Position numbers and translations under genes: made by a program. Shown one piece after another: positions 11,554 to 52,200 of a DNA stretch of 64,000 nucleotides; position 1 is the first letter of the stretch, and the number at the start of each line of letters is the position of its first letter. This stretch comes from Candidatus Woesearchaeota archaeon (GTDB taxonomy: Archaea; Nanobdellota; Nanobdellia; Woesearchaeales; SM23-78): positions 1-64,000 of the forward strand of contig JAFGRK010000018.1 of the NCBI GenBank assembly GCA_016935175.1, written 5' to 3'. A model generated the notes under the pieces. It had not been told where the DNA came from. It was given only the letters and a program-made list of their open reading frames with translations, and made no database searches.

Positions 11554-11647
11554 GAAAAAATTATTTATCTTTTTACTTTTTCTTCTCTTTTTTAAAATCC
11601 CTGGCTTATTAAGAACATTTTTATAGTTATCCTTTCAACCAAGGTGC

Positions 11648-12292
11648 ATGATTATTCGTCAATATGAGCCTGCTGATAGGCAGAGCATTGAGGAAATTCA
11701 GTTCAATACCTATTTTCTTGGCAAGTCAATGAGTAAGTTTGTTAGCAACAGAAAGCCTTTTTCAGCAGAATTAGCACGTTATTTTGAAGAATCAGAAAGC
11801 ATTTTTGTAGCAGAGGATAAAGGCAGAATCGTCGGGTACTTAATTGGCTGTCTTGATGATTCCAAGCATAATAAAAGACTATCTTATGCGAATTTTGTTT
11901 TGAGTAACTTCACCAAAAGTCTTTTTTTTTCTAAACAAGATAGGGCTTATTGGGCCAGCAGATTTGCTTTCTTGTTTAATATCTTGATTGGTAAATCTGG
12001 TGAATTAAAAATGAAAACCCCGGCAAATGCAGGACACTTGCACATCAATCTATTGCCTTCCTCTAGAGGGAAAGGAGCAGGCTCAAAGCTTTTACAGGCT
12101 TTTTTTCGCTACGCAAAAAAGAAAGGTATTAAAGTTGTTCACGCAGACTCATTTGAGACCAGGCTAAACCCCAATAAGAGTTTTTGGATTAAGAACGGAT
12201 TTAAGCCATATTCAAGGATTAGGACTCTATCGTGGAAAAAGCAGCTTCCGAAAGAGGAAATCTATTACGTTTGCTATGTGAAGGCACTTTAA
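11648..12292 (+). CDS. GNAT family N-acetyltransferase
   Basis: A 214-residue acetyltransferase of the GCN5-related superfamily. The N-terminal MIIRQYEPADRQSIEEIQ is a typical GNAT strand-helix start, and the acetyl-CoA loop is seen as SSRGKGAGSKLLQAF (R/Q-x-x-G-x-G/A). The C-terminal strand pair NKSFWIKNGFK is also typical. The substrate is unknown. A T-rich TATA-like site (TTTTATAG, about 11619-11626) lies about 25 nt before the ATG, suggesting its own promoter. Its codons look more A/T-rich than those of the neighbouring genes. Confidence 0.85.
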   Translation: MIIRQYEPADRQSIEEIQFNTYFLGKSMSKFVSNRKPFSAELARYFEESESIFVAEDKGRIVGYLIGCLDDSKHNKRLSYANFVLSNFTKSLFFSKQDRAYWASRFAFLFNILIGKSGELKMKTPANAGHLHINLLPSSRGKGAGSKLLQAFFRYAKKKGIKVVHADSFETRLNPNKSFWIKNGFKPYSRIRTLSWKKQLPKEEIYYVCYVKAL

Positions 12293-12297
12293 TTAAG

Positions 12298-12864
12298 TCA
12301 TTTCAGAACAGCTTCTTTAGCCTTTATTATACCAACAGCTATTGTGCCTCCCGCCAGGGCAGTCACTAATTGAAGAATCCCCATTGTTGTCAGAAAGATA
12401 GTCGGCAGGACTGCTAGCTTGACCAATATAAGCGCTGATGTGAATAAGAAGGCTGTCTTGATGGCAGCTGGCAAGATAGGCATCACAACATTTGCTACTT
12501 GATTCTTTTTCTCAAGCTTCCTTCGCATCAAGTACTTGAAGCCATAAGCAAATAACGCGTTGCTTAGCCAGATGAAAGGTATCATATATATGAGGAGCAT
12601 GGTGAATGGCCCAAATATCAATCCTCGAGCAAGCACTCCTAGGCTTGGTAGCAGGATAATCGGCAGTAGCTTGTGGCCTTTAAGGTAAGTAGCCCCAAGT
12701 ATAAGTGCAGCATTAACTGCTATGCCTACTGCTAGCTGAGGATGGCCTATCAAGAAAGTCACAAAGAAGGATACTAATGAATATGCAATCATCTGAAGGT
12801 TCTCTTCAAGGGCAGTTGTGTCAAATATGCTTTCAAAGTAGGTCTTTTTTATTGTTTCGTACAT
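12298..12864 (-). CDS. Polytopic membrane protein at the end of the hydrogenase operon
   Basis: A 188-residue integral membrane protein with about five hydrophobic helices (around residues 25-40, 45-60, 66-80, 84-106, 125-150 and 155-180, some possibly paired) and few charged residues. No family was recognised. It follows hydA by 49 nt on the same strand, and its stop lies only 5 nt from the end of the convergent GNAT gene, so it is probably the last gene of the hydrogenase operon. HydABC enzymes are normally soluble, so a membrane partner would be unusual. Alternatives are an unrelated transporter component or an S-component-like protein. Confidence 0.7.
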   Translation of the reverse strand: MYETIKKTYFESIFDTTALEENLQMIAYSLVSFFVTFLIGHPQLAVGIAVNAALILGATYLKGHKLLPIILLPSLGVLARGLIFGPFTMLLIYMIPFIWLSNALFAYGFKYLMRRKLEKKNQVANVVMPILPAAIKTAFLFTSALILVKLAVLPTIFLTTMGILQLVTALAGGTIAVGIIKAKEAVLK

Positions 12865-12913
12865 TTTCTTTTCACCAAGTTTTTCTTTTTACCAACTCAT
12901 TTATGCAGCTTTT

Positions 12914-14668
12914 TCATTTATACGGCTTTTTTGAATATGATGTGTGAAGCAGTTTGTGCGCTCTTTCCCCGCCAAACTCCCCTAGGTACTCTGCGTATAT
13001 TTTCAGTGCTGAGGGGTTTTCATGGGACTTCCTGAATTTTTTTCTTTTATCTTCCTTGTTGATGGCATCCATGCGTTTTAGCAAGATTTCCTTGTTAGTC
13101 GGCCTTGGCTGCCCTCCGCCTCCAATGCATCCTCCATAGCAAGCCATTATCTCAATGAAGTGATAAGGGCTCTTGCCTTGTTTTATCTGCTCAAGAAGCT
13201 TTCTTGCCTCCCCAAGGGTGTGGACAACGCAAATCCTAACCTCTTTGCCAGCAAGTGTCAGGGTGGCTTCTTTCATAGTCTCCATGCCCCTAATGCCTTT
13301 GTATTCGATCTTCTCAAGGGATTTGCCTTCTAGCCAGTCAGCTGCTGTCCTTAATGCTGCTTCCATCACTCCTCCGCTCCTGCCAAAGATCACTCCTGCG
13401 CCTGTGCTCTCTCCTAGTGGGTTGTCAAATTCAGAGTCTGGCAGTTTCTCAAAGTCTATGTTCATCTGCTTTATTAGCTTGCCAAGCTCCACAGTTGTGA
13501 GCACATAGTCTGCTTCTTTAACAAATTCAGGCCTTTGTATCTCGTATTTCTTTGCAGTGCAGGGCATGATGTCAACCAAGATTATGTCTTCTGGTTTCTT
13601 GCCTATATTCTCAGCATAATAAGTTTTTATGAGAGACGCGAGTATGGCCTGCGGGCTCCTACAAGTGGACATGTGGTTTAGCTCTTCAAAGAAGAACTGC
13701 TCCCCGAACTTGATCCATGCAGGGCAGCAAGTAGTTATGAGCGGCAAGTCCCTGTTCTCCTTGAATCTCTTGATGAACTCAGTTGCTTCCTCGATTATCG
13801 TGATATCAGCTCCTAGGTCTGTGTCAAATACCTTCTCAAACCCAATCTTTCTTAGGGCGCTTACCATCTTGCCAGTCACATTAGTGCCTGGTTCCATGCC
13901 AAAGCATTCCCCAAGGGTTGCCCTGATAGAAGGTGCTGTCTGGGCTATTAGCATCTTGCCAGAGTTCAATGCATCAATGACGTGCTGCACCCCTGGCTTC
14001 TCAGATAAGGCTCCTGTCGGGCACACAATCACGCATTGGCCGCAGTTCACGCAAGCGCTCTTATCCATGGGATAGTCCAGTGCAGGGGTGATTATTGTGT
14101 CAAAGCCTCGCTTCTGGAAGCCTATGGCATGCACTGTCTGCACATCATTGCACATCCTAACGCACCTTCCGCAAAGAATGCACCTATTATCATTCCTAAC
14201 AATAGACACGCTTGAATCATCAACAGGCACATCGCGCTTCACTCCTGTGAACCTGCTCTGCTCTATCATGAGCTCTGAAGCATACCTTTGAAGCTTGCAA
14301 TTCAGGTTGCTAGGGCAGGTAGGGCAGTTAAGGTCATGGTTTGCTAGGAGCAGCTCAAGGTTAATCCTTCTTGCTTCAAGCAGCCTAGGTGTGTGGGTGT
14401 AGACTTTCATTCCTTCAGCTGGCTTAGTGCTGCAGGAAGTGGTTATTATGCGGTTGCCCCTCATCTCCACTTCTACAACGCACAGCCTGCAAGCAGCAGT
14501 CCTCTCAAGCCTTTCATGCATGCAGAAATGGGGTATCTTGATGCCATGCTCATCTGCTATATCAATAAGGTAATTATTAGGATCAACCATTATCTCTTCG
14601 TCGTTCAGGAATATCTTGACTTTCTGGACAACCGGGTTCACTGTTTGTTCTTTCTTTTTCCTTGGCAT
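12914..14668 (-). CDS. hydA: [FeFe] hydrogenase catalytic subunit (HydA/HndD type)
   Basis: Reversible H2 production at the H-cluster, 584 residues. Order: 2Fe-2S ferredoxin domain (C49, C60, C63, C79), His-ligated 4Fe-4S site (H111, C115, C118, C124), two 4Fe-4S sets (CILCGRC at 163-169 and CVNCGQC at 206-212), then the H-domain. L1 is TTCCPAW with C314 (proton relay) and C315 (ligand), L2 is MPCTAKK with C370, and L3 is MACYGGCIGGGGQP with C510 and C514. The small-subunit-like C-terminal segment (RKSHENP...LLHTSY) is present. All catalytic residues of group A enzymes are intact. It is co-directional with hydB and hydC. Maturases HydE, HydF and HydG are not in this window. Confidence 0.95.
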   Translation of the reverse strand: MPRKKKEQTVNPVVQKVKIFLNDEEIMVDPNNYLIDIADEHGIKIPHFCMHERLERTAACRLCVVEVEMRGNRIITTSCSTKPAEGMKVYTHTPRLLEARRINLELLLANHDLNCPTCPSNLNCKLQRYASELMIEQSRFTGVKRDVPVDDSSVSIVRNDNRCILCGRCVRMCNDVQTVHAIGFQKRGFDTIITPALDYPMDKSACVNCGQCVIVCPTGALSEKPGVQHVIDALNSGKMLIAQTAPSIRATLGECFGMEPGTNVTGKMVSALRKIGFEKVFDTDLGADITIIEEATEFIKRFKENRDLPLITTCCPAWIKFGEQFFFEELNHMSTCRSPQAILASLIKTYYAENIGKKPEDIILVDIMPCTAKKYEIQRPEFVKEADYVLTTVELGKLIKQMNIDFEKLPDSEFDNPLGESTGAGVIFGRSGGVMEAALRTAADWLEGKSLEKIEYKGIRGMETMKEATLTLAGKEVRICVVHTLGEARKLLEQIKQGKSPYHFIEIMACYGGCIGGGGQPRPTNKEILLKRMDAINKEDKRKKFRKSHENPSALKIYAEYLGEFGGERAHKLLHTSYSKKPYK

Positions 14669-14715
14669 CTTAGTTTATGCTCTCTTTTTGCTTTATGCTC
14701 TTTTTTGCTCTTTTC

Positions 14716-16506
14716 TCATTTCCTGTCTATTGCGTTAAACGCGCAAATATCATAACAATTGCCGCACTTGATGCATTTGGCTTGCTCAATCACATGCCTT
14801 TCCTTAATCCTTCCAGTAATAGCATTTGTAGGGCAAACCCTGGCGCAAGCGCCACAGCCAGTGCATTTCTCATTTATTATGTATTTCAATAGCTCAATAC
14901 ATACCTTGCTCGGGCATCTTTTCTCCTTGATATGAGCATCGTACTCCTCTGGGAACTTAGCAATAGTAGATAAGACTGGATTTGGGGCTGTCTTTCCAAG
15001 ATTGCAGAGTGAGTTATCCCTTATGTACTCTGCCAGGAGCTTTAGCTTTTTTATGTCCTGCTCAGTCCCAAGCCCTTTGGTTATCCTGTCAAGAATCTCA
15101 TTCATCCTAGTGTTGCCTTCCCTGCAAGGAGTGCACTTGCCGCAGCTCTCGCTCCTGGTAAAAGCTGTGAAGTATTTGGCAACATTGACCATGCATGACT
15201 CATCATTGATGACAACCATGCCTCCGCTGCCCATTATGGCGCCTGCGTTTTGCAATGGCTCATAATCAAGCGGCAGGTCAAGATCTGCCTCTGTCAAGCA
15301 TCCTCCTGATGGGCCTCCTATCTGGACAGCCTTGAAATTGGTGCCTTCAACAGGGCCTCCGCCTGCATCAAATATTATTTCCCTGAGCTTGGTTCCCATG
15401 GGAACTTCTACTATGCCTGTCCTTTTAACTTTCCCAGTCAAGCATATGTCCTTTGTTCCCTTGGTCTTCTCAGTGCCTATCTTGATGTACTCATCTACAC
15501 CCATTGCCAGAATCTTGGATATATTGGCTAGTGTGCCTACATTGTTGATGTTAGTGGGACAATCATACACTCCTTTATCTGCAGGGTAGGGCGGCCTGAA
15601 CCTTGGGTGGCCTCGCTTTCCCATGACTGAGGCTATGAGAGCTGTTTCTTCTCCACAAACAAAAGCCCCGGCACCTTTCTTTAAGATGATGTCAAAGTCA
15701 AAGCCTTCAACTCCCAGGATGCTCTTTCCAAGCAAGCCTTTATCCTTTAGCATTACCAGTGCTTTTTCAATAGTCTTGATAGCCAAGGGGTATTCTGTCC
15801 TGGTGTAGATTATGCCTTCTTTGGCTCCTGTGGCATAACTCGCGATAATCATTCCTTCGATGATAGAAAATGGATCGCTTTCCATCACTGTCCTGTTCAT
15901 GAAAGCACCAGGATCTCCTTCATCCCCATTGCACACAATAAACTTCCTTCCTTGCTTTGCAGCTAGGAAACCCCATTTCATGCCTGTAAGGAATCCTGCC
16001 CCTCCCCTGCCTCTGAGCTTTGACCTCTTGACTTCTTCAATCAGCTGGGAAGGCTGGAGCTTAAGAGCGTTGGCAAGGCCGGTAAAGCCCCCATTAGCTG
16101 CGTATTGTTCTAGGCTCAAGCCGTTGATAAAGCCGCAGTTCTTCATTACAATCCTTAGTTGCTTCTTGTAGAACTCAATATCCTCAAGCTTGTGGCCTAG
16201 GAGCATTTCCTCGCATACTTGGCTATTGCGGATGCTTTCAATCAGCTTGTCTGCCTTGTCCTCGGTTACATAGCCATAGATGCTTAGCAAGCCGTTCTGC
16301 TTTACCGTGACTATTGGCTCTGCATAGCAGCTTCCTGCGCAGCCCACCCCCTCAACAAGAAGGCTTAGGCCAGCAGTCTTGAGCTTTTCAAGGGTCTTGT
16401 CTGCTCCTGCGCTTATGCCGCAAGTAGCTACGCCAACAGTAATCCTGTCCTGCTCAAGCTCTTTTTTGCCTTTTTCAACATCCAGGATTTCGCTTATCTG
16501 CTTCAT
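14716..16506 (-). CDS. hydB: NuoF-like flavoprotein subunit of the hydrogenase (HydB/HndC)
   Basis: A 596-residue FMN/NAD(P)-binding subunit that passes electrons between NAD(P)H and the hydrogenase. The N-terminal thioredoxin-like 2Fe-2S domain has C29 and CAGSC at 56-60. The FMN site is GRGGAGF (166-172) with the NGDEGDPGAF loop (193-202). A SLBB region precedes ESCGKCTPC (453-461), the NuoF 4Fe-4S site. Two C-terminal ferredoxin motifs follow (CTGCGACARVCP and CIKCGNCYDIC). This layout is that of electron-bifurcating or NADP-reducing HydABC enzymes; bifurcation itself cannot be proved from sequence. It lies between hydC and hydA. Confidence 0.93.
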   Translation of the reverse strand: MKQISEILDVEKGKKELEQDRITVGVATCGISAGADKTLEKLKTAGLSLLVEGVGCAGSCYAEPIVTVKQNGLLSIYGYVTEDKADKLIESIRNSQVCEEMLLGHKLEDIEFYKKQLRIVMKNCGFINGLSLEQYAANGGFTGLANALKLQPSQLIEEVKRSKLRGRGGAGFLTGMKWGFLAAKQGRKFIVCNGDEGDPGAFMNRTVMESDPFSIIEGMIIASYATGAKEGIIYTRTEYPLAIKTIEKALVMLKDKGLLGKSILGVEGFDFDIILKKGAGAFVCGEETALIASVMGKRGHPRFRPPYPADKGVYDCPTNINNVGTLANISKILAMGVDEYIKIGTEKTKGTKDICLTGKVKRTGIVEVPMGTKLREIIFDAGGGPVEGTNFKAVQIGGPSGGCLTEADLDLPLDYEPLQNAGAIMGSGGMVVINDESCMVNVAKYFTAFTRSESCGKCTPCREGNTRMNEILDRITKGLGTEQDIKKLKLLAEYIRDNSLCNLGKTAPNPVLSTIAKFPEEYDAHIKEKRCPSKVCIELLKYIINEKCTGCGACARVCPTNAITGRIKERHVIEQAKCIKCGNCYDICAFNAIDRK

Positions 16507-16563
16507 AGGCTTTATACTCTTATTTGTTTCATTTCAATTTGCTTTAATTTGTTTCATTTCGCC

Positions 16564-17022
16564 TTATTTTAGCTCTGACAATATCTTATCTATCTTTTCC
16601 TCAGTAAGATTACCATACACTTTCTCATTAATCATCATAGCTGGCGCCTTGGCGCAAGCTCCTATGCAGTTCACAGGCACAAGGCTGAACTTGCCGTCAG
16701 GAGTTACTCCCCCAGCCTTTATGCCAAGTTTCTTTTCAAAATAGGTCAGGAGCTTGTCTGAGCGGAAAATGTGGCAGGCAGTGCCCCTGCAAATCTGGAT
16801 ATGGTATTTTCCTCTTGGTGTGAGCCTGAATGAAGAGTAGAATGTAGCAACCCCAGACACAGTCACAAAAGGCACATTGAGCTTTTTTGCCGCTCGCTCA
16901 AGCATTTCCTCAGAAAGGTAGCCAAATTCCTCTTGAAGGTCTTCGAGCACAGGGATTAAGTCTTCTTTTGTGCTATACTTCTTAAGAATCCTCTCAACCT
17001 CTTCCCACTCTGCCATTTTCAT
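16564..17022 (-). CDS. hydC: NuoE-like 2Fe-2S subunit of the hydrogenase (HydC/HndA)
   Basis: A 152-residue thioredoxin-like 2Fe-2S protein. The four ligands are in CRGTAC and CIGAC. The N-terminal helical part with YLSEEMLERAAKKLNVP is typical of NuoE, and the family loop GVATFYSSF is present. First gene of the operon hydC-hydB-hydA-membrane protein. A TATA-like TTTAAAAA at 17043-17050 (minus strand) lies about 25 nt upstream of ATG 17022, indicating a leaderless transcript from this ATG; a second in-frame ATG lies two codons on. Confidence 0.93.
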   Translation of the reverse strand: MKMAEWEEVERILKKYSTKEDLIPVLEDLQEEFGYLSEEMLERAAKKLNVPFVTVSGVATFYSSFRLTPRGKYHIQICRGTACHIFRSDKLLTYFEKKLGIKAGGVTPDGKFSLVPVNCIGACAKAPAMMINEKVYGNLTEEKIDKILSELK

Positions 17023-17042
17023 AAATAATATCAGTGATGATG

Positions 17043-17050
17043 TTTTTAAA
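17043..17050 (-). promoter_or_regulatory. TATA box of the hydrogenase operon
   Basis: On the minus strand this reads TTTAAAAA, with its centre about 25 nt before the hydC ATG. The 153-nt region to pta on the other strand is a divergent promoter region, so hydrogenase and pta-ackA may be co-regulated. Confidence 0.55.
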
Positions 17051-17175
17051 TCTTATGGTAAGGCTTTATTTAAGTGCTATAAACAGTTAACTTTTAATAA
17101 TGCAAAAATTTTAATAATCAAATCATACTCATAAGCAGCATCCTAGCATAATATGCTCATTAAGAGGTGAATCAC

Positions 17176-18162
17176 ATGAAACTAGCGTTTCTTGAGAATA
17201 TAAGGAAGAAAGCAAAGGCTAATCCAAAGGCTATTGTTTATCCTGAAGGAACAGAGGGGAGGGTTCTTAAGGCTGCTGACAAAGTGGCTAAGCAGGCGTT
17301 TGCCAAGGTAATTATCCTCGGGGATGAAGCTAGCATCATGGAGCAGGCCAAGAAGCTGAAGCTAAAGCTTAAGGGAGTTCTCATAATCAATCCTGGTAAG
17401 TATGAGCGCTTCGAAGAGATGGCTAATGCTTTTTATGAGCTAAGAAAGCACAAGGGTATAACTCTTGAGCAGGCGCGAGAGATTGTGAAGAAGACTAACT
17501 ACTTCGGCACCATGCTGGTGCAGATGGGAGAAGCAGACGGGCTTGTCAGTGGAAGCACTCACTCAACAGCAGACACTGTAAGGCCTGCTTTGGAGATTAT
17601 CAAGACTCATGAGAAATCCCATAAGGTATCAAGCTTCTTTTTCATGGTTATGGGTGGCAAGCCAATGCTATTTGCTGATTGCGCAATAATTATTGACCCT
17701 GATGCCAAGGACCTTGCTGGCATAGCCATTGACACAGCTAAGAGCGCTAAGGCTTTTGGGATAGAGCCAAGAGTAGCCATGCTCTCATTCTCAACCAAAG
17801 GCTCAGCAACTCATCCCAGTGTTGACAAGGTAAAAGAGGCTGTGGCTATTGCAAAGGGCACTATGCCAGAGCTGATTATTGACGGCGAGATGCAGGTGGA
17901 TGCTGCACTTGTTCCTGATGTGTGCATAAAGAAATGCCCTGATTGCATGATAAAAGGGGATGCTAACGTGCTCATATTCCCAGACCTTAACTCAGGCAAC
18001 ATTGCTTACAAGCTAGTGGAGAGGCTTGCCAAGGCAAGCGCAGTAGGACCTATACTGCAAGGGCTTAGGAAGCCTGTGAATGACCTTTCCAGGGGCTGCA
18101 GCGTTGATGATATAGTTGATGTGACAGCCATAACTGTGGTCGAGGCCCAGAACCGCCAGTGA
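17176..18162 (+). CDS. pta: Phosphate acetyltransferase
   Basis: Converts acetyl-CoA and phosphate to acetyl phosphate and CoA. The roughly 328-residue length matches the short, single-domain bacterial-type Pta. Family landmarks include KAIVYPEGTEGRVLKAA at the start, the substrate-site segment GLVSGSTHSTADTVRPAL, a CxxC-like pair in KKCPDCMIKG, and NVLIFPDLNSGNIAYKL. ATG 17176 is chosen over the in-frame GTG 17167 because that GTG is part of the ribosome binding site AAGAGGTGA. AckA follows 41 nt later, forming the classical acetate pathway, which is uncommon in archaea (most use ADP-forming acetyl-CoA synthetase). Confidence 0.95.
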   Translation: MKLAFLENIRKKAKANPKAIVYPEGTEGRVLKAADKVAKQAFAKVIILGDEASIMEQAKKLKLKLKGVLIINPGKYERFEEMANAFYELRKHKGITLEQAREIVKKTNYFGTMLVQMGEADGLVSGSTHSTADTVRPALEIIKTHEKSHKVSSFFFMVMGGKPMLFADCAIIIDPDAKDLAGIAIDTAKSAKAFGIEPRVAMLSFSTKGSATHPSVDKVKEAVAIAKGTMPELIIDGEMQVDAALVPDVCIKKCPDCMIKGDANVLIFPDLNSGNIAYKLVERLAKASAVGPILQGLRKPVNDLSRGCSVDDIVDVTAITVVEAQNRQ

Positions 18163-18203: not shown

Positions 18204-19463
18204 GTGAATATTTTAGTGCTTAATTCAGGAAGCAGCTCTTTGAAGTACAAGTTCTTTGACATGGCTACAGAGAAAGCCTTGCTCTCAGGCCATATAGATG
18301 GCATAGGGCTTGAAAGGTGCCTTGTTAAGATGAGTATGGATGGTAGGAAAGAAGAGAGCAAAGCCCTGGTCAAGGACCATGTAGATGCAATAATTCTCGC
18401 CCTTAAGTCATTGAAAGACAAGCAAGTCATTGGCAGCTATGCAGACATCCATGCCATAGGCCACAGGGTGGTGCACGGGGGAGAAAAATACGAGCAGCCA
18501 ACATTGATTGACGAAAAGGTGATAAGGGCAATAAAGCAGTTGTTTGAGCTAGCGCCCCTTCACAACCCCCCTAATCTTGCAGGAATACTGGCTTGCAGGA
18601 AAATACTTCCCTCTGCCCCTCAAGTAGCTGTTTTTGACACAGCATTCCACCAGAGCATGCCTCCAGAAGCCTATCTTTATGGCTTGCCATATGAGCTTTA
18701 TGAGAAGCACAGGATAAGGAAGTATGGCTTCCACGGCACAAGCCACAAATACCTTTCTGAGCAGGCTGCTAAGCTGCTGGGCAAGAAAGAGGTAAAAGTA
18801 ATCACTTGCCACCTTGGGAATGGCTCATCCATCACAGCCATCAAGGACGGAAAGTCCATCAATACTTCCATGGGATTTACGCCAATGGATGGCTTGATAA
18901 TGGGCACAAGGACAGGAAGCATAGACCCTCAGATACCTGTCTTCCTGCTCAAGCATAAGCAGTATTCATTGGCAGATATGCAGGAAATATTCAACAAAAA
19001 ATCAGGGTTGTTTGGGATTTCAGGATTGACCCATGACGTTAGGGACTTGTGGAAAGCCAGTGTCAAGGGAAACTCAAGGGCTAAGCTGGCATTGTCATTG
19101 TTCTGCCACAGGGCAGCATTTTTCATTGGAGGGTATATTGCGCTCCTGGGAGGAATTGATGCTTTGGTGTTCTCAGCAGGCATAGGGGAGAATGCCTGGC
19201 ATATTAGGAGGCGAATATGCAAGTACCTTGAGCCGTTAGGCGTAGAGATTGATACAGGCCTTAACAGGAAGAACAATTCATTAATCATCTCCAAGCCTAG
19301 CTCTAAGGCAAAGATATTCGTCATCCCGACTAATGAGGAGCTTCAGATAGCCAGGGAGACAAAACAGCTGATTCTCGAGGCAAAGCCCTTGATCAAGGAT
19401 GCGAGGAGTTCTAGCAAGAGGCTTAAAGAGCTAATCAAGGAAAGAAATGAGGCTAAAAATTAG
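18204..19463 (+). CDS. ackA: Acetate kinase
   Basis: Makes ATP and acetate from acetyl phosphate and ADP. The ASKHA fold motifs are clear: NSGSSSLKYKFFD at the start, GHRVVHGG, FDTAFHQSMPP, YGFHGTSHKY, HLGNGSS, GTRTGSIDP and FSAGIGENA. Length 419 residues, with a basic C-terminal extension of about 20 residues beyond the usual 400. GTG 18204 starts the conserved N-terminus and follows AAGAGGTG at proper spacing; the ATG four bases earlier is out of frame. It forms an operon with pta. Confidence 0.96.
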   Translation: MNILVLNSGSSSLKYKFFDMATEKALLSGHIDGIGLERCLVKMSMDGRKEESKALVKDHVDAIILALKSLKDKQVIGSYADIHAIGHRVVHGGEKYEQPTLIDEKVIRAIKQLFELAPLHNPPNLAGILACRKILPSAPQVAVFDTAFHQSMPPEAYLYGLPYELYEKHRIRKYGFHGTSHKYLSEQAAKLLGKKEVKVITCHLGNGSSITAIKDGKSINTSMGFTPMDGLIMGTRTGSIDPQIPVFLLKHKQYSLADMQEIFNKKSGLFGISGLTHDVRDLWKASVKGNSRAKLALSLFCHRAAFFIGGYIALLGGIDALVFSAGIGENAWHIRRRICKYLEPLGVEIDTGLNRKNNSLIISKPSSKAKIFVIPTNEELQIARETKQLILEAKPLIKDARSSSKRLKELIKERNEAKN

Positions 19464-19493: not shown

Positions 19494-20420
19494 TTATGCT
19501 TTTCCACACCACTTCTTTAGCTGCTCCCACCTTAAGTCTATGTTATTCTGTATCTGCTCAACAATGTGGGCGTTCTCTGGCTTCATCAAGTGCCTGAACC
19601 TGCCTTGCAGCTTGAGCCACTCAATAATAGGCTTCTTGTTAATCCCAGGGTCATAGTTTAATATCCATGTGTCGTTCTCAATCTCAAACAAAGGCCAAAA
19701 GCAGGTGTCAACAGCCAGCTTGGCAAGCTTGATGCTCTGGCTAGAAGGGTATTTCCATCCCGGCACACAAGGAGAGAGCACATTGATGAATGCAGGGCCT
19801 TTGGCTGCAAAAGCCTTTTCAGACTTCCTTAATAAGTCCATGTAATTATGAGGGCTTGCCTGGGCAACATAAGGTATGTGGTGGGCTGCAACAACTGCAG
19901 TTAATTCTTTTTTGAACTGCTCTTTGCCTTTATGCGCTTTGCCGACAGCAGAAGTATTGGTCCATGCTCCGTAAGGCGTGCTGCTGCTTCTCTGTATTCC
20001 TGTGTTCATGTAGCCCTCATTATCGACGCATACATAGACAAAGTCATGTCCTCTCTCGAGTGCTCCTGAAAGTGATTGCAAGCCGATGTCATATGTGCCT
20101 CCATCTCCGCCAAAAGCCAGGAACTTGATTTCTTTGTTAATCTTGCCTGTCCTTTTCAAAGCCTTATAAGCTGCTTCAACTCCAGTGATGGTTGCTGCTG
20201 CGTTCTCAAAAGCATTATGTATCCAAGGAACTTTCCACGCAGTATAAGGGTAAATTGTTGTGCTGACTTCAAGGCAGCCAGTAGCATTAGACACGACTAT
20301 AGGGTCTTTTGTGCCTCTCATCACAGCTCTTGCTATTATTGGCAAGGCGCAGCCAGGGCAAAGCCTATGCCCAGATGCTAATCTTTCCCCGTCCAATGCT
20401 AGTTCACGTATGTTTGCCAT
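19494..20420 (-). CDS. porB: Pyruvate:ferredoxin oxidoreductase beta subunit
   Basis: Thiamine-diphosphate subunit of pyruvate:ferredoxin oxidoreductase, 308 residues. The ThDP motif is GGDGGTYDIGLQ...DNEGYMNTG, with Cys ligands for the proximal 4Fe-4S cluster in HRLCPGCA, the single ATGC Cys and a late CVPGW Cys. Last gene of the porG-porD-porA-porB operon. Its stop lies 30 nt from the end of the convergent ackA. A 2-oxoacid oxidoreductase for another substrate is possible, but the four-subunit layout beside pta-ackA favours pyruvate. Confidence 0.93.
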   Translation of the reverse strand: MANIRELALDGERLASGHRLCPGCALPIIARAVMRGTKDPIVVSNATGCLEVSTTIYPYTAWKVPWIHNAFENAAATITGVEAAYKALKRTGKINKEIKFLAFGGDGGTYDIGLQSLSGALERGHDFVYVCVDNEGYMNTGIQRSSSTPYGAWTNTSAVGKAHKGKEQFKKELTAVVAAHHIPYVAQASPHNYMDLLRKSEKAFAAKGPAFINVLSPCVPGWKYPSSQSIKLAKLAVDTCFWPLFEIENDTWILNYDPGINKKPIIEWLKLQGRFRHLMKPENAHIVEQIQNNIDLRWEQLKKWCGKA

Positions 20421-20469: not shown

Positions 20470-21660
20470 TTATTCTCTCACTCCTAAATACCTCACAAGC
20501 TCTCCAAGGTTTCCATTCTTAATTTCTTCAAGCTCTGCAAATACTTTCCTTATCTGCTCCAGGTCTAATTCCCTGCCTCCTAGGCCGTAAATGTAGTTGA
20601 TTAGTATTGGCTTGTCTTGTTTTTCTTGCTCGTGGAATGAGCTTCTGACCTCATGGAACAATGGCCCTCCTAGTGCTCCAAAGCTTGCAGCCCTGTCAAG
20701 CACAGCCACAACTTTAGCATGCTTTAGCTTTTCCACAACCTGCTCATTAAGCCAAGGCCTGAACACCCTCATCTTTAATAGTCCAACTTTCTCTCCTTTA
20801 GCTCTTAGCTCGTCAACAATCACTTTGGTGCTTCCTGCGCTGCTGTTAGAGCAGAAAATCACTTTCTCAGCATCATCAAGCATATATCCCTCAAAGAAAT
20901 CATACTCTTTGCCAACTATCTTGCCAAACTCATCAAAGACTTGCCTGATTACCTTCTTGCTGTGTTCCATGGCATCAATCTGCTGGCGCTTGTGCTCAAA
21001 ATAATAGTCAAAAAAGTCAAGAGGGCCATAAGTAACTGGCTTGTCAACATCAAGCAAAGGATAATGAGGCTTGTAAGCTCCTATGAATGCTTTTGCAGTG
21101 GCATCATCAATTATTTCCACTGTCTCAACGCAATGGCTTGTTATGAATCCGTCCTGACATACCATTACTGGCAAGAGCACATCAGGGTGCTCAGCAATCC
21201 TTACTGCCATGAGAGTGTTCTCATAGGCTTCTTCGCCAGTCTCTGAGTAGAGCTGTATCCATCCGCTGTCCCTGCATCCCATGCTGTCTGAATGGTCGCA
21301 GTGGATGTTGATCGGGCCGCTAAGAGCACGATTGACAACGTTCATGACAATAGGAAGCCTTGTGCCAGAGGCAATATAGACTATTTCCCACATCAAAGCC
21401 AAGCCATTAGCGCTTGTGGCGGTCATAGCCCTTGCGCCTGCTGCGCTTGCGCCAACGCACGCGCTCATAGCGCTATGCTCAGACTCAACAGTCACTAGCT
21501 CAGTATCAACCTCTCCGTCAGCAACAAACTGTGAGAAATTATGCATTATCTCAGTCTGCGGAGTAATAGGATAAGCAGCTACAACGTCAGGGTTCACCTG
21601 CTTCATAGCCTCTGCAGTACACTCTGCTCCTGTCATTGCGCGTTTTGTCTTGGTTACCAT
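20470..21660 (-). CDS. porA: Pyruvate:ferredoxin oxidoreductase alpha subunit
   Basis: A protein of about 396 residues. The AAYPITPQTEIM segment and ESEHSAMSACVGASAAGARAMTATS are classic signatures of the pyrimidine-binding half of the ThDP site in 2-oxoacid:ferredoxin oxidoreductases. SNSSAGSTK and the CoA-site-like C-terminal domain follow. The open frame extends to 21750, but ATG 21660 (MVTKTKRAMTG) fits the family start; the extra part is the leader element. Third gene of porGDAB. Confidence 0.94.
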   Translation of the reverse strand: MVTKTKRAMTGAECTAEAMKQVNPDVVAAYPITPQTEIMHNFSQFVADGEVDTELVTVESEHSAMSACVGASAAGARAMTATSANGLALMWEIVYIASGTRLPIVMNVVNRALSGPINIHCDHSDSMGCRDSGWIQLYSETGEEAYENTLMAVRIAEHPDVLLPVMVCQDGFITSHCVETVEIIDDATAKAFIGAYKPHYPLLDVDKPVTYGPLDFFDYYFEHKRQQIDAMEHSKKVIRQVFDEFGKIVGKEYDFFEGYMLDDAEKVIFCSNSSAGSTKVIVDELRAKGEKVGLLKMRVFRPWLNEQVVEKLKHAKVVAVLDRAASFGALGGPLFHEVRSSFHEQEKQDKPILINYIYGLGGRELDLEQIRKVFAELEEIKNGNLGELVRYLGVRE

Positions 21661-21667
21661 TTTTTTA

Positions 21668-21764
21668 TTTCCCCTGGAGGGCAAATAATCTCTTTCTTTT
21701 TTAAGTAATTTTTTTCCCTTAATCAAGCATGAACATGATTTGGTCCTCATTTGCCGGACAGGCT
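21668..21764 (-). repeat. Leader-like conserved element upstream of porA
   Basis: On the minus strand the spacer starts just after the porD stop with CCTGTCCGGC...GAGGACCAAATCAT, where GTCC/GGAC can form a hairpin. It continues through an A-rich middle of about 50 nt and ends ATTTGCCCTCCAGGGGAAA just before porA. The same two ends, with a different middle, occur before aspS (48326-48430). CAAAT near the 5' end can pair with ATTTG near the 3' end in both copies. It may be a cis-acting RNA leader or a repeat; no known riboswitch was recognised. Confidence 0.55.
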
Positions 21765-22178
21765 TCAGTCCTTGAACTCATTCTCCTCATGCATCTCTAT
21801 TGCCTTGAACGGGCATTCTGAGGCGCATATGCCGCAACCCTTGCAAAAGTCAAGGTTAAAGCCCCCGAAGTTGCCAAGGTTAGGCTTGTCGCTCACTCCC
21901 TTATGCCCCTTGTTAGGATCATTCACCCCGCCTACTTTTATGGCTGAGTCAGGGCAGAGCATCCAGCAAATCATGCAATTAGTGCATAGCTCTGGCTTAT
22001 GAACAGGCCTAAATGTCCTCCAGGCCCCTGTCTTGTAGCCTACGCTGTTGCCTGGCTCAAGGATTTTCCCTCCAATAGGTATATCTTTCCAGCCTTTCAG
22101 CTTTTTTTCCCCTTGCCCTTTAGCTTCTTGGCTTTTAGCTGCTTCTTCTTTTTTAGCCTCTTCACTTTCATTGCTCAT
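21765..22178 (-). CDS. porD: Pyruvate:ferredoxin oxidoreductase delta subunit (2[4Fe-4S] ferredoxin)
   Basis: A 137-residue ferredoxin-like subunit with two complete 4Fe-4S motifs, CTNCMICWMLCP and CKGCGICASECP, which carry electrons from PorAB to external ferredoxin. The N-terminal 45 residues are Lys/Glu-rich and longer than in typical PorD. ATG overlaps the porG stop by 4 nt (translational coupling). Confidence 0.95.
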   Translation of the reverse strand: MSNESEEAKKEEAAKSQEAKGQGEKKLKGWKDIPIGGKILEPGNSVGYKTGAWRTFRPVHKPELCTNCMICWMLCPDSAIKVGGVNDPNKGHKGVSDKPNLGNFGGFNLDFCKGCGICASECPFKAIEMHEENEFKD

Positions 22179-22747
22179 AGCTTTACCTCATTATAAGCCC
22201 TGACAAATGCATTGATGTTCTTGTCAGCTATGTCCTTGCCAAGGTCGTGAACAAAATGATCGTACAAATGCTTTTTTAGCTCTTCATAATCAACAATATT
22301 AGTGGCTTTCTCTATTGCTCCAAGCATTGCAGTGTTGGTTATGGGCTTTCCTAGCTCTTCCAGAGCTATCTTGACAGCATCCAATACCACAATCCTTCCT
22401 TTGAAGCCTGTGAGCTGCCTGACATCTTCAACTCCTTGGCTGGTGTTGGCTATCAATACCCCGTTCTGCTCATCCAAGCCTTCAGCTACACGTATGCTTT
22501 TCAAAAGCGTAGGGTCAAAAACCGCAACCAAGTCAGGGTTGGTGACTCCTGTGTGCAATAGGATTTTCTTGTCGCTTATGCGCGTGAAGGCTTTCATAGG
22601 GGCTCCTTGCCTTTCTGCGCCGTACTCAGGAAAGCTTTGCACATACTTGCCTGATTCCATGGCTGCCTCTGCAAGCACAGCAGCAGCAGTCTTGGCTCCC
22701 TGGCCACCTCTGCCGTGGAGCCTTATCTCAAAGATGTCCTTTGGCAT
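22175..22747 (-). CDS. porG: Pyruvate:ferredoxin oxidoreductase gamma subunit
   Basis: A 190-residue CoA-binding-type gamma subunit with the family opening RLHGRGGQGAKTAAAVLAEA and the loop SFPEYGAERQGAP. First gene of the operon. A CATATAAA box at 22771-22778 on the minus strand lies about 28 nt before the ATG and there is no ribosome binding site, so translation is probably leaderless. The operon is divergent from ppsA. Confidence 0.95.
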   Translation of the reverse strand: MPKDIFEIRLHGRGGQGAKTAAAVLAEAAMESGKYVQSFPEYGAERQGAPMKAFTRISDKKILLHTGVTNPDLVAVFDPTLLKSIRVAEGLDEQNGVLIANTSQGVEDVRQLTGFKGRIVVLDAVKIALEELGKPITNTAMLGAIEKATNIVDYEELKKHLYDHFVHDLGKDIADKNINAFVRAYNEVKL

Positions 22748-22914: not shown

Positions 22915-25338
22915 GTGGTAGATAAGCATAATGCTTTTGTTCTGTGGTTTGACCAGATAGGCATTGATGATGTTAAATATGTTGGCGGCAAGAATGCCAG
23001 CCTTGGGGAGATGTACACCCACCTGACTCATCGGGGAGTGTCTGTGCCTAATGGTTTTGCAATAACTGCCAAGGCTTATTTCTACCTCCTGGAAAAAGCA
23101 GGAGTTATGAGTGAGATGAAAGAATTGTTGTCAGGGCTTAACACCAGGAACATCCAACAGCTGCAAAAGACAGGCCACAGGGTCAGGGAATTGATAAGGA
23201 CTGCAGAGATACCTCATGACTTGAGAAAGCAGATATACGAGGCTTACCGGGACCTTTGCGGGGCTTATAGCAAGGACCGCTCTGACATTGATGTGGCTGT
23301 GAGGAGCAGCGCAACAGCAGAGGATTTGCCTGATGCCAGCTTTGCAGGCCAGCAAGAGACTTACCTCAACATAAGGGGGGAGGAGCAATTGCTTGATGCC
23401 TGCAAAAAATGCTTTGCCAGCCTATTCACCAATAGGGCTATCAGCTACAGGCAGGACAAGGGATTTGACCATTTCAAGATAGGCCTCAGCATCGGGGTTC
23501 AGAAGATGGTTCGCTCTGACAAGGCATGCTCTGGGGTGATGTTCACCATTGACACAGAGACCGGTTTTAGGGATGTCATCATAATCAATGGCTCATACGG
23601 CTTAGGGGAGAACATTGTCCAAGGAGTGGTTAATCCTGATGAGTTCATGGTCTTCAAGCCCACGCTTAAGCATGGCTTCAAGTCTATCATCAACAAGAAG
23701 CTTGGCTCTAAAGAGATAAAGATGATTTATGATACTCATGGCAACAAGAGCACCCGCAACATACAGGTGCCTATTAATGAGAGGAAGAAATTTGTCCTCA
23801 CAGATGATGAGATTGCCACCCTAGCCCACTGGGGGTGCATAATAGAGGAGCATTATTCCAGGAAGGCAGACAAGCATAAGCCCATGGACATTGAATGGGC
23901 AAAGGATGGCGTGACCAAGCAATTATTCATTGTGCAGGCAAGGCCAGAGACCGTGCACTCACAAAAAGACATGACCAAGCTAATCAAGTACGTGCTAAAA
24001 GAGCAAGGCCCAATGATAATCAACGGCGAGTCAGTAGGCAATAGGATTGGCAGCGGAAGGGTAAGGGTCATAGAGAATGTTTCTAACATCAACAAGTTCA
24101 AGGAAGGAGAAGTCCTTGTGACTGACATGACAGACCCTGACTGGGAGCCTATAATGAAGATAGCCAGCGCCATTGTGACTAACAGGGGCGGCAGGACTTG
24201 CCATGCAGCCATCATCTCCCGTGAGCTAGGCATACCTTGCGTTGTTGGCACAGAAAAAGCCACAGAAGTAATCAAGGACAAGCAAGAAGTCACTGTTGAC
24301 TGCAGCCAAGGGGAAGAAGGGTTTATCTACCAAGGCTTGCTCAAGTTCGAGATAGAAGAGCTGGACATAGGCTCATTACCCACGACTAAGACCAAGATCA
24401 TGATGAACATAGCAGACCCATTGCAAGCCTTCAAGGAGAGCTTTATCCCTAATGACGGGGTGGGGTTGGCAAGGGAGGAGTTCATCATCAACTCAGAGAT
24501 CAAGATACACCCTCTCGCATTGCTGAAGTTCAGCAAGATAAAGGATGAGAAATTAAAGAACAAGATAAATATGCTTACTAACGGCTATGCTAACAAGGAA
24601 GACTTCTTCATCAACAGGCTGGCAAGAGGCATAGGAATGATAGCAGCCTCATTCTACCCTAAGCCAGTCATTGTCAGGATGAGCGACTTCAAGAGCAATG
24701 AGTACGCCAACCTGATAGGGGGGAAACTTTTTGAGCCAGTAGAAGATAACCCGATGATTGGCTGGAGGGGAGCCTCAAGGTACTACAGCGAGGACTATAG
24801 GGAAGCATTTGCGCTTGAATGCAGGGCAATACTCAAGGCAAGGGATGAGTTCGGTCTGAAGAACATAAAAGTGATGATACCCTTCTGTAGGACTATTGAT
24901 GAAGCCCAGAAAGTGATACAAGTCATGCACGAATCAGGCTTGAAGCAGAAAGAGCACGGTCTTGAGGTTTATGCCATGTGCGAGATACCTAGCAACGTCA
25001 TAATGGCAGAAGAGTTCCTTGACATTTTTGACGGCTTCTCAATAGGCAGCAATGACCTGACGCAATTGACACTAGGGTTGGACAGGGACTCTGAGCTGGT
25101 AAAAGACATCTATGATGAGAGGAATGAGGCAGTCAAGAAGCTAATAAGGCAAGTCATTGAGATTGCGAACAGGAAAGGCAAGTACATAGGCTTGTGCGGC
25201 CAGGCTCCGTCAGACTTCGAGGACTTTGCAGAGTTCCTGGTAGAGGCAGGCATCCACAGCATCAGCCTAAACCCAGACACAGTAATCAAGACCACACTCA
25301 AGATTGCTGAGAAGGAAAGCCAATTAGGGATAAGGTAA
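22915..25338 (+). CDS. ppsA: Phosphoenolpyruvate synthase
   Basis: Interconverts pyruvate + ATP and PEP + AMP + phosphate. 807 residues, the usual PpsA length. Visible are the N-terminal ATP-grasp part (GGKNASLGEM, VRSSATAEDLPDASFAGQQET), the swivelling phospho-His domain with catalytic H430 in GGRTCHAAIISRELGIP, and the PEP/pyruvate-binding C-terminal barrel with GSNDLTQLTLGLDR and catalytic C761 in LCGQAPS. GTG 22915 is correctly spaced after AAGAGGTGAG. Divergent from porGDAB, so it sits at the PEP-pyruvate node of the fermentation island; direction in the cell cannot be read from sequence. Confidence 0.96.
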   Translation: MVDKHNAFVLWFDQIGIDDVKYVGGKNASLGEMYTHLTHRGVSVPNGFAITAKAYFYLLEKAGVMSEMKELLSGLNTRNIQQLQKTGHRVRELIRTAEIPHDLRKQIYEAYRDLCGAYSKDRSDIDVAVRSSATAEDLPDASFAGQQETYLNIRGEEQLLDACKKCFASLFTNRAISYRQDKGFDHFKIGLSIGVQKMVRSDKACSGVMFTIDTETGFRDVIIINGSYGLGENIVQGVVNPDEFMVFKPTLKHGFKSIINKKLGSKEIKMIYDTHGNKSTRNIQVPINERKKFVLTDDEIATLAHWGCIIEEHYSRKADKHKPMDIEWAKDGVTKQLFIVQARPETVHSQKDMTKLIKYVLKEQGPMIINGESVGNRIGSGRVRVIENVSNINKFKEGEVLVTDMTDPDWEPIMKIASAIVTNRGGRTCHAAIISRELGIPCVVGTEKATEVIKDKQEVTVDCSQGEEGFIYQGLLKFEIEELDIGSLPTTKTKIMMNIADPLQAFKESFIPNDGVGLAREEFIINSEIKIHPLALLKFSKIKDEKLKNKINMLTNGYANKEDFFINRLARGIGMIAASFYPKPVIVRMSDFKSNEYANLIGGKLFEPVEDNPMIGWRGASRYYSEDYREAFALECRAILKARDEFGLKNIKVMIPFCRTIDEAQKVIQVMHESGLKQKEHGLEVYAMCEIPSNVIMAEEFLDIFDGFSIGSNDLTQLTLGLDRDSELVKDIYDERNEAVKKLIRQVIEIANRKGKYIGLCGQAPSDFEDFAEFLVEAGIHSISLNPDTVIKTTLKIAEKESQLGIR

Positions 25339-28866: not shown

Positions 28867-30297
28867 TCACCCAGGTTTTGCTTTTCTGGAAAATGAAATA
28901 AACAATATGATCAAAGTACAAATAATCGCAAAGTATGGGAATATAAACCCATAATCAACATAAAATGTGTGTTTTTTAATAGGCATAACATTTCCAATTG
29001 CAGTGCCGGTTTTTCCCAAGCCTATGTTTTGAGTTATCCTCCCTTTCGGATCAATTATTTGAGAGATTCCTGATGTAGTTGTTCTTGCTATAAACCTTCC
29101 ATTTTCAACAGCTCGCATAGAAGTCATGGCAGAGTGCTGCAAATGCTGCGTTTTGCTCCAATCCATTGCATCGTAAGTGGGAATAAACAGCATTTCTGCG
29201 CCATTTTTAACTATGTTTCTTGCTACATAACTGTAATCCGCATCATAGCAGATAAAAATTCCGATATTCCCATGTTCGGTCTGGAAAACCGAATATTCTT
29301 TTCCAGGGTCTCCATCATTAAAGAATTGAATAGGATTCATCTTATAATATCTACCTGAAATTTCTCCTGAAGGATTAATTAAATAGGCACTGTTGTAATA
29401 ACCTAATTTACCATCGTCATTCTTATCTTTGCTGCCAACAATCATGTATGCTGAATATTTTATAGTAATATTCTGGATTTCTTTCAATAAAAGCTCATCT
29501 TCATTTAGATAAGTAGGCAAGGCGTATTCGGGCAACAGGATGAAGTCAACATCAGTGTTGAGTGTATTTATCAGACTTCTATATGCGCGGAATTCAGATG
29601 ATTCATCTTGAACAAGAGCAACTTTTACCTCAGGGGAATAATTCTCATTCATATAGTATATTCCAGAGGAAATAATTGCCAATATAATTACTAATACGGA
29701 GGCGCCAACCGCAATCTTTTCTTTAGTACTATCATTATTGACAAATAAATAAACAATAAAAGAATTTATGAAAATTATCAACGCTGTAATGCCGTACTGG
29801 CCAAGAATGCTTGAAAATTGAAGTGCGGGTAAAAAATTATGTTGGCTGTAGCCTATATTCATCCATGAGAATTTTAATATCCAGAATTCTGATTTAACAA
29901 ATTCAATTGCAGTCCAAATAATTGCTGGTGAAAGCAGGATCACCCATCTTGATTTTAGCTTGTTATAAACATAACTTAGGCAATATGCAAAAAAATAAGG
30001 ATACACACACAATACTAGAAGCAAAAAGAGGCCAAACCAACCAAAAATATGATACACCCAGTGGAGAGTTCCAAAATAAAATACTATGCCAAATACAAAC
30101 CCTGTTACTGGAGCTTCATCATATAATATGCCAAATATCTTTTTATGCTCGAAAGGAGTAATTATGATGGCGTATAACAAAGGAGCTAGTGCAACCCAGA
30201 TTAGGAAAGATAAATTGTACGGGGGAAATGATAATATGCAAAGAATTCCAGACAACGCTGCAAGTAAAAACGGGTTTTTTAATGCCTTTTTATCCAT
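28867..30297 (-). CDS. lnt: Apolipoprotein N-acyltransferase-like membrane protein
   Basis: A 476-residue protein. Six or so N-terminal helices (residues 10-215) precede a nitrilase-type domain (about 225-450) and a final helix (about 451-470). The catalytic triad of the nitrilase/Lnt family is visible: Glu in LLPEYALP, Lys in YYKMNPIQF, Cys in FICYDADY. Lnt acylates the N-terminal Cys of lipoproteins in Gram-negative bacteria; in an archaeon the substrate would be unclear, though a lipobox protein is encoded nearby. Its codons look clearly more A/T-rich than those of the neighbours, consistent with recent transfer. Confidence 0.85.
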   Translation of the reverse strand: MDKKALKNPFLLAALSGILCILSFPPYNLSFLIWVALAPLLYAIIITPFEHKKIFGILYDEAPVTGFVFGIVFYFGTLHWVYHIFGWFGLFLLLVLCVYPYFFAYCLSYVYNKLKSRWVILLSPAIIWTAIEFVKSEFWILKFSWMNIGYSQHNFLPALQFSSILGQYGITALIIFINSFIVYLFVNNDSTKEKIAVGASVLVIILAIISSGIYYMNENYSPEVKVALVQDESSEFRAYRSLINTLNTDVDFILLPEYALPTYLNEDELLLKEIQNITIKYSAYMIVGSKDKNDDGKLGYYNSAYLINPSGEISGRYYKMNPIQFFNDGDPGKEYSVFQTEHGNIGIFICYDADYSYVARNIVKNGAEMLFIPTYDAMDWSKTQHLQHSAMTSMRAVENGRFIARTTTSGISQIIDPKGRITQNIGLGKTGTAIGNVMPIKKHTFYVDYGFIFPYFAIICTLIILFISFSRKAKPG

Positions 30298-49262: not shown

Positions 49263-52200
49263 ATGAAGAACCCATTTTATAGAGGGAGCGCTTTAGTCAT
49301 ATTTCTAAGCCTTATAGTCCTCGCCCTAGTTCTTGCTGCGCCTTCAGAAGATGAAGGCAAGACCACCCTTATTTCTGATCATGGTAAGGCCTATAAGGTC
49401 CAGGAAAATCCAACCATTGACTTTGACTATGAGAGAGGGTTCGACCCAATCAAATATGTAATCCAAATTTTCTCAGACCCAAGGGAAGCCAAGCTCACAA
49501 AAGACGGGAAGGAAATAGCTGCAGACATAAGAGTAGAGAAGACAGCTTACGGCAAGTACTCAGTTGAGATACCCAAGCCAAGGCAGTTCAAGCCAGGGCT
49601 CTATACTGTAACATTGACTAATGACGGAGAGACCATAGAGCAAGACTTCCTTTGGGGAGTGTTAGCTATCAACACGCATAAGTCAATCTACCTACCTGGG
49701 GAGGAAGCCTTCATAGCAATGGCAGTATTGGATGATGGGGGAAGGATGGTGTGTGATGCTGATGTGACACTTGAGATAACCAATCCTTCAGGAATAAAAT
49801 CAACCCTTAGCACTGGTGAAGGAACAATAGTTGTTTCTCCTACCTGCCATTATTATTCAGTCACTGACATGCCTGATTATTATTCTTATTACACTATGCA
49901 AGAAGCAGGCACTTATCAGGTAGTTCTTACAGCCATTACTAAGAATGGTGAGAGGACTCTTACAGACAATTTCTTTGTTCAGGAAACTGTTGATTATGAT
50001 GTTTCAAGGAAAGGCCCTACAAGGATTTATCCAAGGGATATTTACACAATGGAATTCACCATCACCCCCGGTAGGGCTTATTCTGGTGTTATCAGAGAGT
50101 ATGTTCCTGCTAGCTTTAAGATTATGCCTCAGGAGGGATTATCAGTTATGACAGTTGGTGATTTAAAGGTTCTTGAATGGAGAACAAGCCTTAGCCAAGG
50201 CCAATCCCAGGTCTTGAGCTATGATTTTGATGCTCCTGACATCTCACCTTATTTCTTTACTTTGGGAAAGCTTGAGATAGGCAACTGGCAAGAGGCAAGG
50301 GATTGGATGATTGCTAGTGATGCGGTTTATGTTGTTAATTACACTGGTGATGATACTTGGAGTGCCCCTGAAGGAATTGCTTGGGCATTTATAGAGTGCT
50401 GGGGCGGTGGAGGTGGTGGTGGAGGCTCAAATGCTGGTAAGACTAACTTCGGTGGTGGTGGTGGTGCTGGAGGTCAGTATGCTGCTAGCAACATTACTAA
50501 TCTTCCAGCAGGAAATTATGCTATTGTTGTTGGTAGTGCAGGAGCTGCTGGTCTTGCTGCTGGCGGCAATGGCGGTGCTGGTGGTAACAGCACATTCAAT
50601 GGGTCCACTGTTAAAGCTGTTGGAGGAGCAGGAGGAATTGCTAATGCAGGAGCAGGAGGCACTGGTGAAAATAGCACTGGAATTGGTCAAATAGTATATC
50701 GTGGTGGTAGCGGTTACACTGGAGGCGCTTCTGGCGGTGCTGGAGGCGGAGGAGCTGGAAGTAGTGGTGCTGGAGGTGACGCTACTGGTGTTGGCACTAA
50801 CCCTGGATCTGGCACTGCTGAATTCGGCGGTGCTGGCGGCAATGGTGGCGCTGATGCTGATGGCAGCCCTGGAAGCGATTATGGCGGTGGCGGTGGAGGA
50901 GGCGAGACTGGGCCGTCTGGTGGAAGCGGTACTCCAATGGCAGGTGGTGCTGGCGCTCAGGGATATGTAAGGATTACTTATATGATTGCTGACGCTGCTG
51001 ATGAGGAAGCTCCAACAGTCACTATCAACACAGGTCTCAACAATACTGTCTTCACTACTAGAACTCCTACTTTTGACTATACTTTCTCAGACAGCATTAG
51101 CGAATATGCTAACTGCACCCTATACATTAATGATACAGCCCGTAATACTACCCTTAATGTTGCTAACGGCACAGCAACCAAGTACCTAACAGCCAACACT
51201 TCTCTTGTTGACAGCAACTACTCTGTTTACATCAACTGCACTGATGCCTCTGGCAATGTTGGCATGTCTGGTGTTTTGAGGGTTGCTGTGGATGCTACTG
51301 CTCCAGCTATTACAGGGGTGCTTAACCATAGCATCACAGACACTTTTGCGATGATTAACTGGACTACTGACCAGATTGCCAATGGCAGTGTCAAGTACGG
51401 CACAGGGCTTGACATGAGCACCGGGACTGTAATTCATACAAGCCTGCTCTCTGCGCATAATATCTCTTTGGCTGGCTTGAGTGCTAGCACGCTTTACTAT
51501 TACAATATCACTAGCTGTGATGCCCATGGCAACTGTAATATGACAGGGCCTTATAACTTCACCACTACAGCAGCTCCTGATAATACTCCTCCTACTGTGA
51601 ATATCAATGCTGGGCTTAACAACACTGTTTTCACTACTAGAACCCCTACTTTTGACTACAATTTTAATGACACCACTAGCTCTGTTGCTAATTGCACTTT
51701 GTTCATTAATGATACTGCCCGCAATACTACCCTTAATGTTGTTAATGGAACATCAACGAAGTACCTTACATCTGATTCTTCTCTTGTTGACAGCAATTAT
51801 TCTGTTTACATAAACTGCACTGATGCCTCTGGCAATATTGGAAAGTCTGATGTTTTAAGGGTTGCTGTGGATGCTACTGCTCCTGCAATCACTGGTGTGC
51901 TTAACCATAGCATCACTAGCAGCTTTGCCATGGTTAATTGGACTACTAGCGAGCTTGCTAATGGCAGTGTCAAGTACGGCACAGGGCTTGACATGGGTAC
52001 TGGGACTGTGGTCCACACCAATCTGCTCACTGCGCATAATATTTCCCTTAGCGGCCTGGGCAGCACCACATTCTACTACTATAATATTACTAGCTGCGAC
52101 CCTCATGGATGGTGCAACATCACAGGACCTTATAACTTCACCACCTCAACAGGACCAGATACCACTGCGCCAACAGTTTCCATCAACACTTCATTGGATA

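Follow-up and report, generated by a model that had tools for sequence, protein, structure and literature searches.

Intact trimeric [FeFe] hydrogenases in Woesearchaeales genomes without detectable HydE, HydF or HydG

A trimeric group A [FeFe] hydrogenase with every cofactor ligand in place is encoded by a Woesearchaeota archaeon in whose draft genome (G000, 93.6% complete) profile searches found none of the maturases HydE, HydF and HydG. The hydrogenase genes lie within a 64,000-nucleotide stretch of this genome, the whole of which is referred to here as the window. The reading that we favour, with a probability of roughly 0.6, is that this HydABC complex makes H2 using a diiron subcluster that would come from a HydEFG-free route, and that a membrane protein encoded beside it, here called M, is tied to the catalytic subunit. 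We know of no system with worked-out maturation in which in vivo H-cluster assembly does not require the full HydEFG set.

The catalytic subunit HydA (584 aa) is encoded on the minus strand at positions 12914..14668, where the plus strand is filled with stop codons. It exceeds the cut-offs of both NF040763 (790 bits against 765) and TIGR02512 (495 bits against 406), and contains the Pfam domains Fe_hyd_lg_C (PF02906) and Fe_hyd_SSU (PF02256). The H-cluster cysteines C315, C370, C510 and C514 are intact along with the relay cysteine C314, and no accessory-cluster ligand is missing (C49/60/63/79, H111/C115/118/124, C163/166/169/173 and C206/209/212/216). The group A motifs TSCCP, PCxxKxxE and MACxxGC appear as ITTCCPAW, IMPCTAKKYE and EIMACYGGCIGGGGQP, and the top PDB sequence matches are the HydA subunits of the HydABC complexes 8a6t, 7q4v and 7p5h. 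The family scores and the recovery of every cysteine that it had named thus bear out the first-pass annotation, which had described an [FeFe] hydrogenase of group A from an archaeon, complete in its active site; that interpretation overlooked the strand, HydB and HydC, the fermentation neighbours and a fourth gene.

Upstream of hydA by 47 bp lies hydB (14716..16506, minus strand), encoding a 596-aa NuoF-like FMN/NADH subunit (TIGR01959, PF01512, PF10589, Fer4) with a C-terminal ferredoxin-like region for two [4Fe-4S] clusters (C548-C588). A further 57 bp upstream is hydC (16564..17022, minus strand), encoding a 152-aa NuoE-like [2Fe-2S] subunit (TIGR01958, PF01257) with C78, C83, C119 and C123. 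The gene for M (188 aa; 12298..12864, minus strand) follows hydA by 49 bp in the same direction, and we infer that hydC-hydB-hydA-M is a single co-directional four-gene operon. The adjoining NuoF-like HydB and NuoE-like HydC are those of a trimeric group A3 enzyme. Electron bifurcation by the window's HydABC is uncertain because NF040763, the family of its HydA, is named in NCBIfam for NADH-dependent enzymes of group A6. In many other archaeal loci HydB is only ~370 aa long. In each of two genomes (G254, locus L148; G032, locus L155), a single contig bears two complete tandem HydABC sets, which represent the two archaeal HydB length classes (~370 aa and ~600 aa).

The surrounding genes read as a compact module converting pyruvate to acetate and H2. 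Genes for phosphate acetyltransferase (pta, 17167..18162, plus strand; TIGR00651) and acetate kinase (ackA, 18204..19463, plus strand; TIGR00016) are followed by those for the pyruvate:ferredoxin oxidoreductase subunits on the minus strand: beta (porB, 19494..20420; top match NF008819, under its cut-off), alpha (porA, 20470..21750; top match NF040682, slightly under its cut-off), the ferredoxin-type delta (porD, 21765..22178; TIGR02179, over cut-off) and gamma (porG, 22175..22747; TIGR02175, over cut-off). Beyond them lies a PEP synthase (pyruvate, water dikinase) gene (22915..25338, plus strand; TIGR01418). In the proposed scheme, HydABC would be soluble and trimeric, an [FeFe] hydrogenase of NADH/ferredoxin-linked (electron-bifurcating) type; it would re-oxidise the NADH and ferredoxin produced by glycolysis and Por and release H2, while Pta-AckA would yield ATP and acetate alongside. 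H2 evolution and its direction, confurcation and the presence of a [2Fe] subcluster are predictions. Elsewhere the window encodes an apolipoprotein N-acyltransferase-like protein that is unexpected in an archaeon (28867-30297, minus strand; LNT_N and CN_hydrolase), a protein of 2192 aa, possibly a surface adhesin, in which Ig-like and glycine-rich domains occur (49263-55841, plus strand), and a type II/IV secretion ATPase (60889-63186, plus strand).

The first-pass annotation had noted that the maturases were not nearby, which proved an understatement. Models of HydE, HydF and HydG were run over 47 HydA-positive genomes, all drafts of uncultured organisms, comprising 45 above the TIGR02512 cut-off and two with partial genes. 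The three maturases were found all together or not at all, and they are missing from 41 of the 47 genomes, the window's included (40 of the 46 others). The genome-wide search that the annotation had called for recovered no hydE, hydF or hydG; that the enzyme is inactive or misbinned does not follow from this, in view of purifying selection, the retained residues and synteny in a congener.

Residues at the diiron site and along the proton path are preserved in the maturase-less set. With CpI numbering assigned by motif, the relay C299 and E279, E282, S319, M353 and K358 are each present in 41/41 sequences and M497 in 39/39; we take the roles of these residues in CpI to be established. They are identical in archaea with HydEFG, archaea without HydEFG and nearly all bacteria sampled. 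Between close pairs of maturase-less HydA genes, dN/dS is 0.056-0.103. Moreover, the slot between a thioredoxin-like gene and pta (window 11554-17166, compared with L335 of G165 and L330 of G184) holds M-HydABC in the window and in the congener G105 and a [NiFe] hydrogenase in the congeners G165 and G184, the latter enzyme assigned by Pfam for large and small subunits in G184 and by similarity of the translations in G165. We argue from this exchange of [NiFe] and [FeFe] enzymes within a fermentation locus that H2 turnover is the trait under selection. The purifying selection, the retained diiron-pocket and proton-path residues and the [NiFe] enzyme in the same slot make it probable that the window's HydABC is an active enzyme that has a diiron centre. 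Should it carry a real [2Fe] subcluster in the absence of HydEFG, as we propose, this subcluster would be made or obtained by a route not using those proteins.

One version of this proposal is that an endogenous maturation pathway of another kind stands in for HydEFG, which we consider a serious candidate at somewhat below even odds. It would account for an active site that is conserved and selected without HydEFG, and the window's genome contains 15 radical SAM loci, several without an assigned function; however, none of the ten radical SAM proteins that were profiled there is of the HydE or HydG type, and M is the only gene family kept beside HydABC in many loci. A different explanation, that HydABC lacks the diiron site and carries the [4Fe-4S] cubane only, acting either as an NADH:ferredoxin oxidoreductase or to buffer electrons, would fit a genome without HydEFG, since assembly of the cubane needs only the general Fe-S machinery. 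We judge it unlikely, as the diiron-site and proton-path residues are kept in all 41 sequences and the slot is filled by another H2 enzyme in two congeners.

Protein M matched no family in Pfam or NCBIfam (one chance-level match, E 0.07), and a 38-sequence profile of it found no sequence relative in the PDB. It is encoded beside HydABC, in either orientation, in 18 of 46 HydA loci examined. Across 288 genomes of the order, M occurs in 37/47 HydA-positive versus 4/241 HydA-negative genomes (Fisher p 7e-33), and the association persists when tested inside families (15 of them informative, drawn from genomes with a family label; CMH p 1.2e-6). A mirror-tree comparison of M and HydA gave r 0.38 (0/2000 permutations), a value that carries no species-tree control and that we do not count as evidence. 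Of the four HydA-negative genomes with M, one (G184) has M adjoining a gene for a 353-aa HydA-like protein, and the remaining genomes (G094, G179 and G196) yielded no [FeFe] domain. Outside the order, M adjoins HydA-like proteins of 303 aa (G423) and 282 aa (G491), and in G498 it lies near a HydABC set that is 75-78% identical to other archaeal sets. Since M also adjoins such short single-subunit [FeFe] hydrogenases, it is tied to the catalytic subunit and not to HydB or HydC; by this genomic association M is functionally linked to the [FeFe] catalytic subunit, whatever the partners of the latter. No M was found within the flanks examined of 70 bacterial HydA loci. In one family (f7), a protein beside M labelled 'HydC' was a false assignment and reads as a PheRS alpha chain.

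The idea that M replaces HydEFG was rejected, as M is present in 4/6 genomes with the maturases and 33/41 without them. M is not indispensable either, because M went undetected in ten HydA-positive genomes, including G160 (100% complete) and G049 (99%). AlphaFold models of two M proteins have six transmembrane helices, with pLDDT values of 92 (the window's M) and 94, and for both the top PDB matches in Foldseek are ECF S-components (RibU, ThiT and 5edl; probability 0.85-1.00). The match to 5kbw has a probability of 1.00 and TM-scores of 0.61/0.66; across the matches TM does not go beyond about 0.6 and the E-values of 0.08-1.1 are non-significant, and we therefore describe the predicted fold, with reserve, as weakly S-component-like. 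A search of BFVD gave nothing informative. The modelled M has six transmembrane helices, as RibU and ThiT do, and a topology that may be similar to theirs; it shows no detected sequence similarity to S-components, and its genome has no EcfT. EcfT (PF02361) was absent from 28 of 29 genomes tested, including the window's, with a weak match in G004 only.

These features bear on another version of the proposal, in which a diiron precursor or Fe-CO-CN synthon would be salvaged from H2-evolving neighbours, with M as the solute-binding membrane part and spontaneous insertion into apo-HydA. Synthetic [2Fe]adt can be loaded into apo-HydA in vitro, and the same holds inside living E. coli and cyanobacteria; HydEFG is missing, M goes with [FeFe] catalytic subunits that come in two architectures, and its model weakly resembles RibU and ThiT. 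Against this, EcfT is lacking and the Foldseek E-values are not significant, M also occurs where the maturases do, 8 of the 41 maturase-less genomes have no M, and the diiron precursor is labile. Salvage is accordingly doubtful, and we would give even less credence to its general form, that Woesearchaeota and other DPANN archaea do without HydEFG because they salvage the diiron cofactor or an Fe-CO-CN precursor across species via M. Literature searches on ECF transporters together with the H-cluster returned nothing relevant.

That the maturases are present but were missed, through incomplete binning or the HMMs used, appears very improbable. The genomes are drafts, the window's being 93.6% complete, yet among those with completeness of 90% or more and contamination of 5% or less, 27/30 lack the maturases, as against ~2 expected from incompleteness. 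The models detect a full hydG-hydE-hydF cluster in each of the six HydEFG-positive relatives, and the same HydG model detected the gene in 36/42 bacterial genomes whose HydA is related. In G498, a 919-kb single contig bearing HydABC and M, no full-length match to HydEFG reached significance, and profile searches found no HydEFG in G065, whose largest contig is 1.0 Mb. The contigs with hydGEF operons also hold genes common to other woesearchaeal contigs, and these operons are therefore probably native to their archaeal genomes. In five of the six HydEFG-positive genomes (L192-L195 and L197) an apparent transcription regulator of ~150 aa is kept beside hydG in divergent orientation.

Five genomes with an isolated hydG (G184, of the window's genus, G151, G242, G245 and G255) were rejected as ordinary HydEFG-positive cases. 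In these loci (L330:8391-16222, L331, L332, L333 and L334) hydG pairs with a gene fusing HypC (PF01455) to a HydE-like radical SAM protein, with a BATS domain as well in 4/5, and HydF was not found nearby. The pair adjoins [NiFe] hydrogenase genes in L330 (by Pfam) and L332 (by sequence), and L330 also encodes a HycI-like protease. This arrangement suggests that HydE and HydG may have been recruited to build the Fe-CO-CN moiety in a [NiFe] hydrogenase; a literature search on HydG together with HypC found nothing relevant.

[FeFe] hydrogenases are common in the window's order, with 45 of the 288 sampled genomes exceeding the TIGR02512 cut-off, so the earlier description of such enzymes as rare in archaea fails for this group. 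Among HydA loci in public genomes, the nine closest to the window's are all labelled Woesearchaeota, Nanoarchaeota or archaeon (63-74% identity) and bacterial relatives begin at ~50%, which agrees with the archaeal host genome stated in the first-pass annotation. In the HydA tree the sampled bacterial sequences form a single clade (support 99), and those from archaea fall into several groups. The window's HydA clusters with those of G105, which has no HydEFG, and of G169 and G112, which do, and HydEFG-positive and -negative genomes are interleaved such that at least five changes are forced. The congener G105 likewise has the window's operon together with its flanks. Most [FeFe] hydrogenases are bacterial, but the separate bacterial clade, the synteny in G105 and the recurrence of such a HydA in 45 genomes of the order leave practically no likelihood that the window's contig is misbinned bacterial DNA.

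So-called ultraminimal [FeFe] hydrogenases have reportedly been described from DPANN archaea; the HydA-like proteins of 282-353 aa beside M (G491, G423 and G184) presumably resemble them, and the window's enzyme differs in being of the full-length trimeric type. A short HydA-like gene was also found in G068 (L329, C22:55418-56077, minus strand; PF02906, 103 bits), a genome that is 100% complete and has neither M nor HydG.

A 2021 study described group A3 enzymes of the trimeric type from Woesearchaeota (Huang et al. 2021, PMC8421398), and the window's enzyme is of this already published kind, sharing with them NuoF-like and NuoE-like partners, conserved P1-P3 motifs and the link to Por. The main text of that article contains no match for 'matur', 'HydE' or 'HydG', and we found in it neither the absence of hydEFG nor the M family nor the exchange for a [NiFe] enzyme. 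No report of the missing maturases was found in the literature searched, and priority for this observation is uncertain. The electron-bifurcating HydABC enzymes of bacteria (Thermotoga maritima 7p5h; Acetobacterium woodii 7q4v, 8a6t) are alike in subunits and cofactor ligands; unlike the window's enzyme, bacterial relatives mostly occur with HydG, and none has M in the flanks examined.

Two points deserve to be followed: the maturases are missing while the enzyme is intact and under selection, and M, a membrane protein not described before, co-occurs with it tightly. HydEFG-free maturation is a standing question for protists such as Entamoeba. An [FeFe] hydrogenase gene without HydEFG has been noted in Entamoeba and in Rhodospirillum rubrum (PMC4967309); while those are isolated cases, in the archaeal order 41 of 47 genomes are without HydEFG, and the enzyme is a HydABC complex with an intact proton path. 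This set is large, phylogenetically replicated and prokaryotic, and because it combines intact enzymes, matched HydEFG-positive relatives and M as a co-travelling candidate, the maturation question becomes directly testable. If true, either a new route of maturation or the sharing of the cofactor among cells would help in the production of [FeFe] hydrogenases, and would alter the genome-based prediction of H2 production by DPANN archaea.
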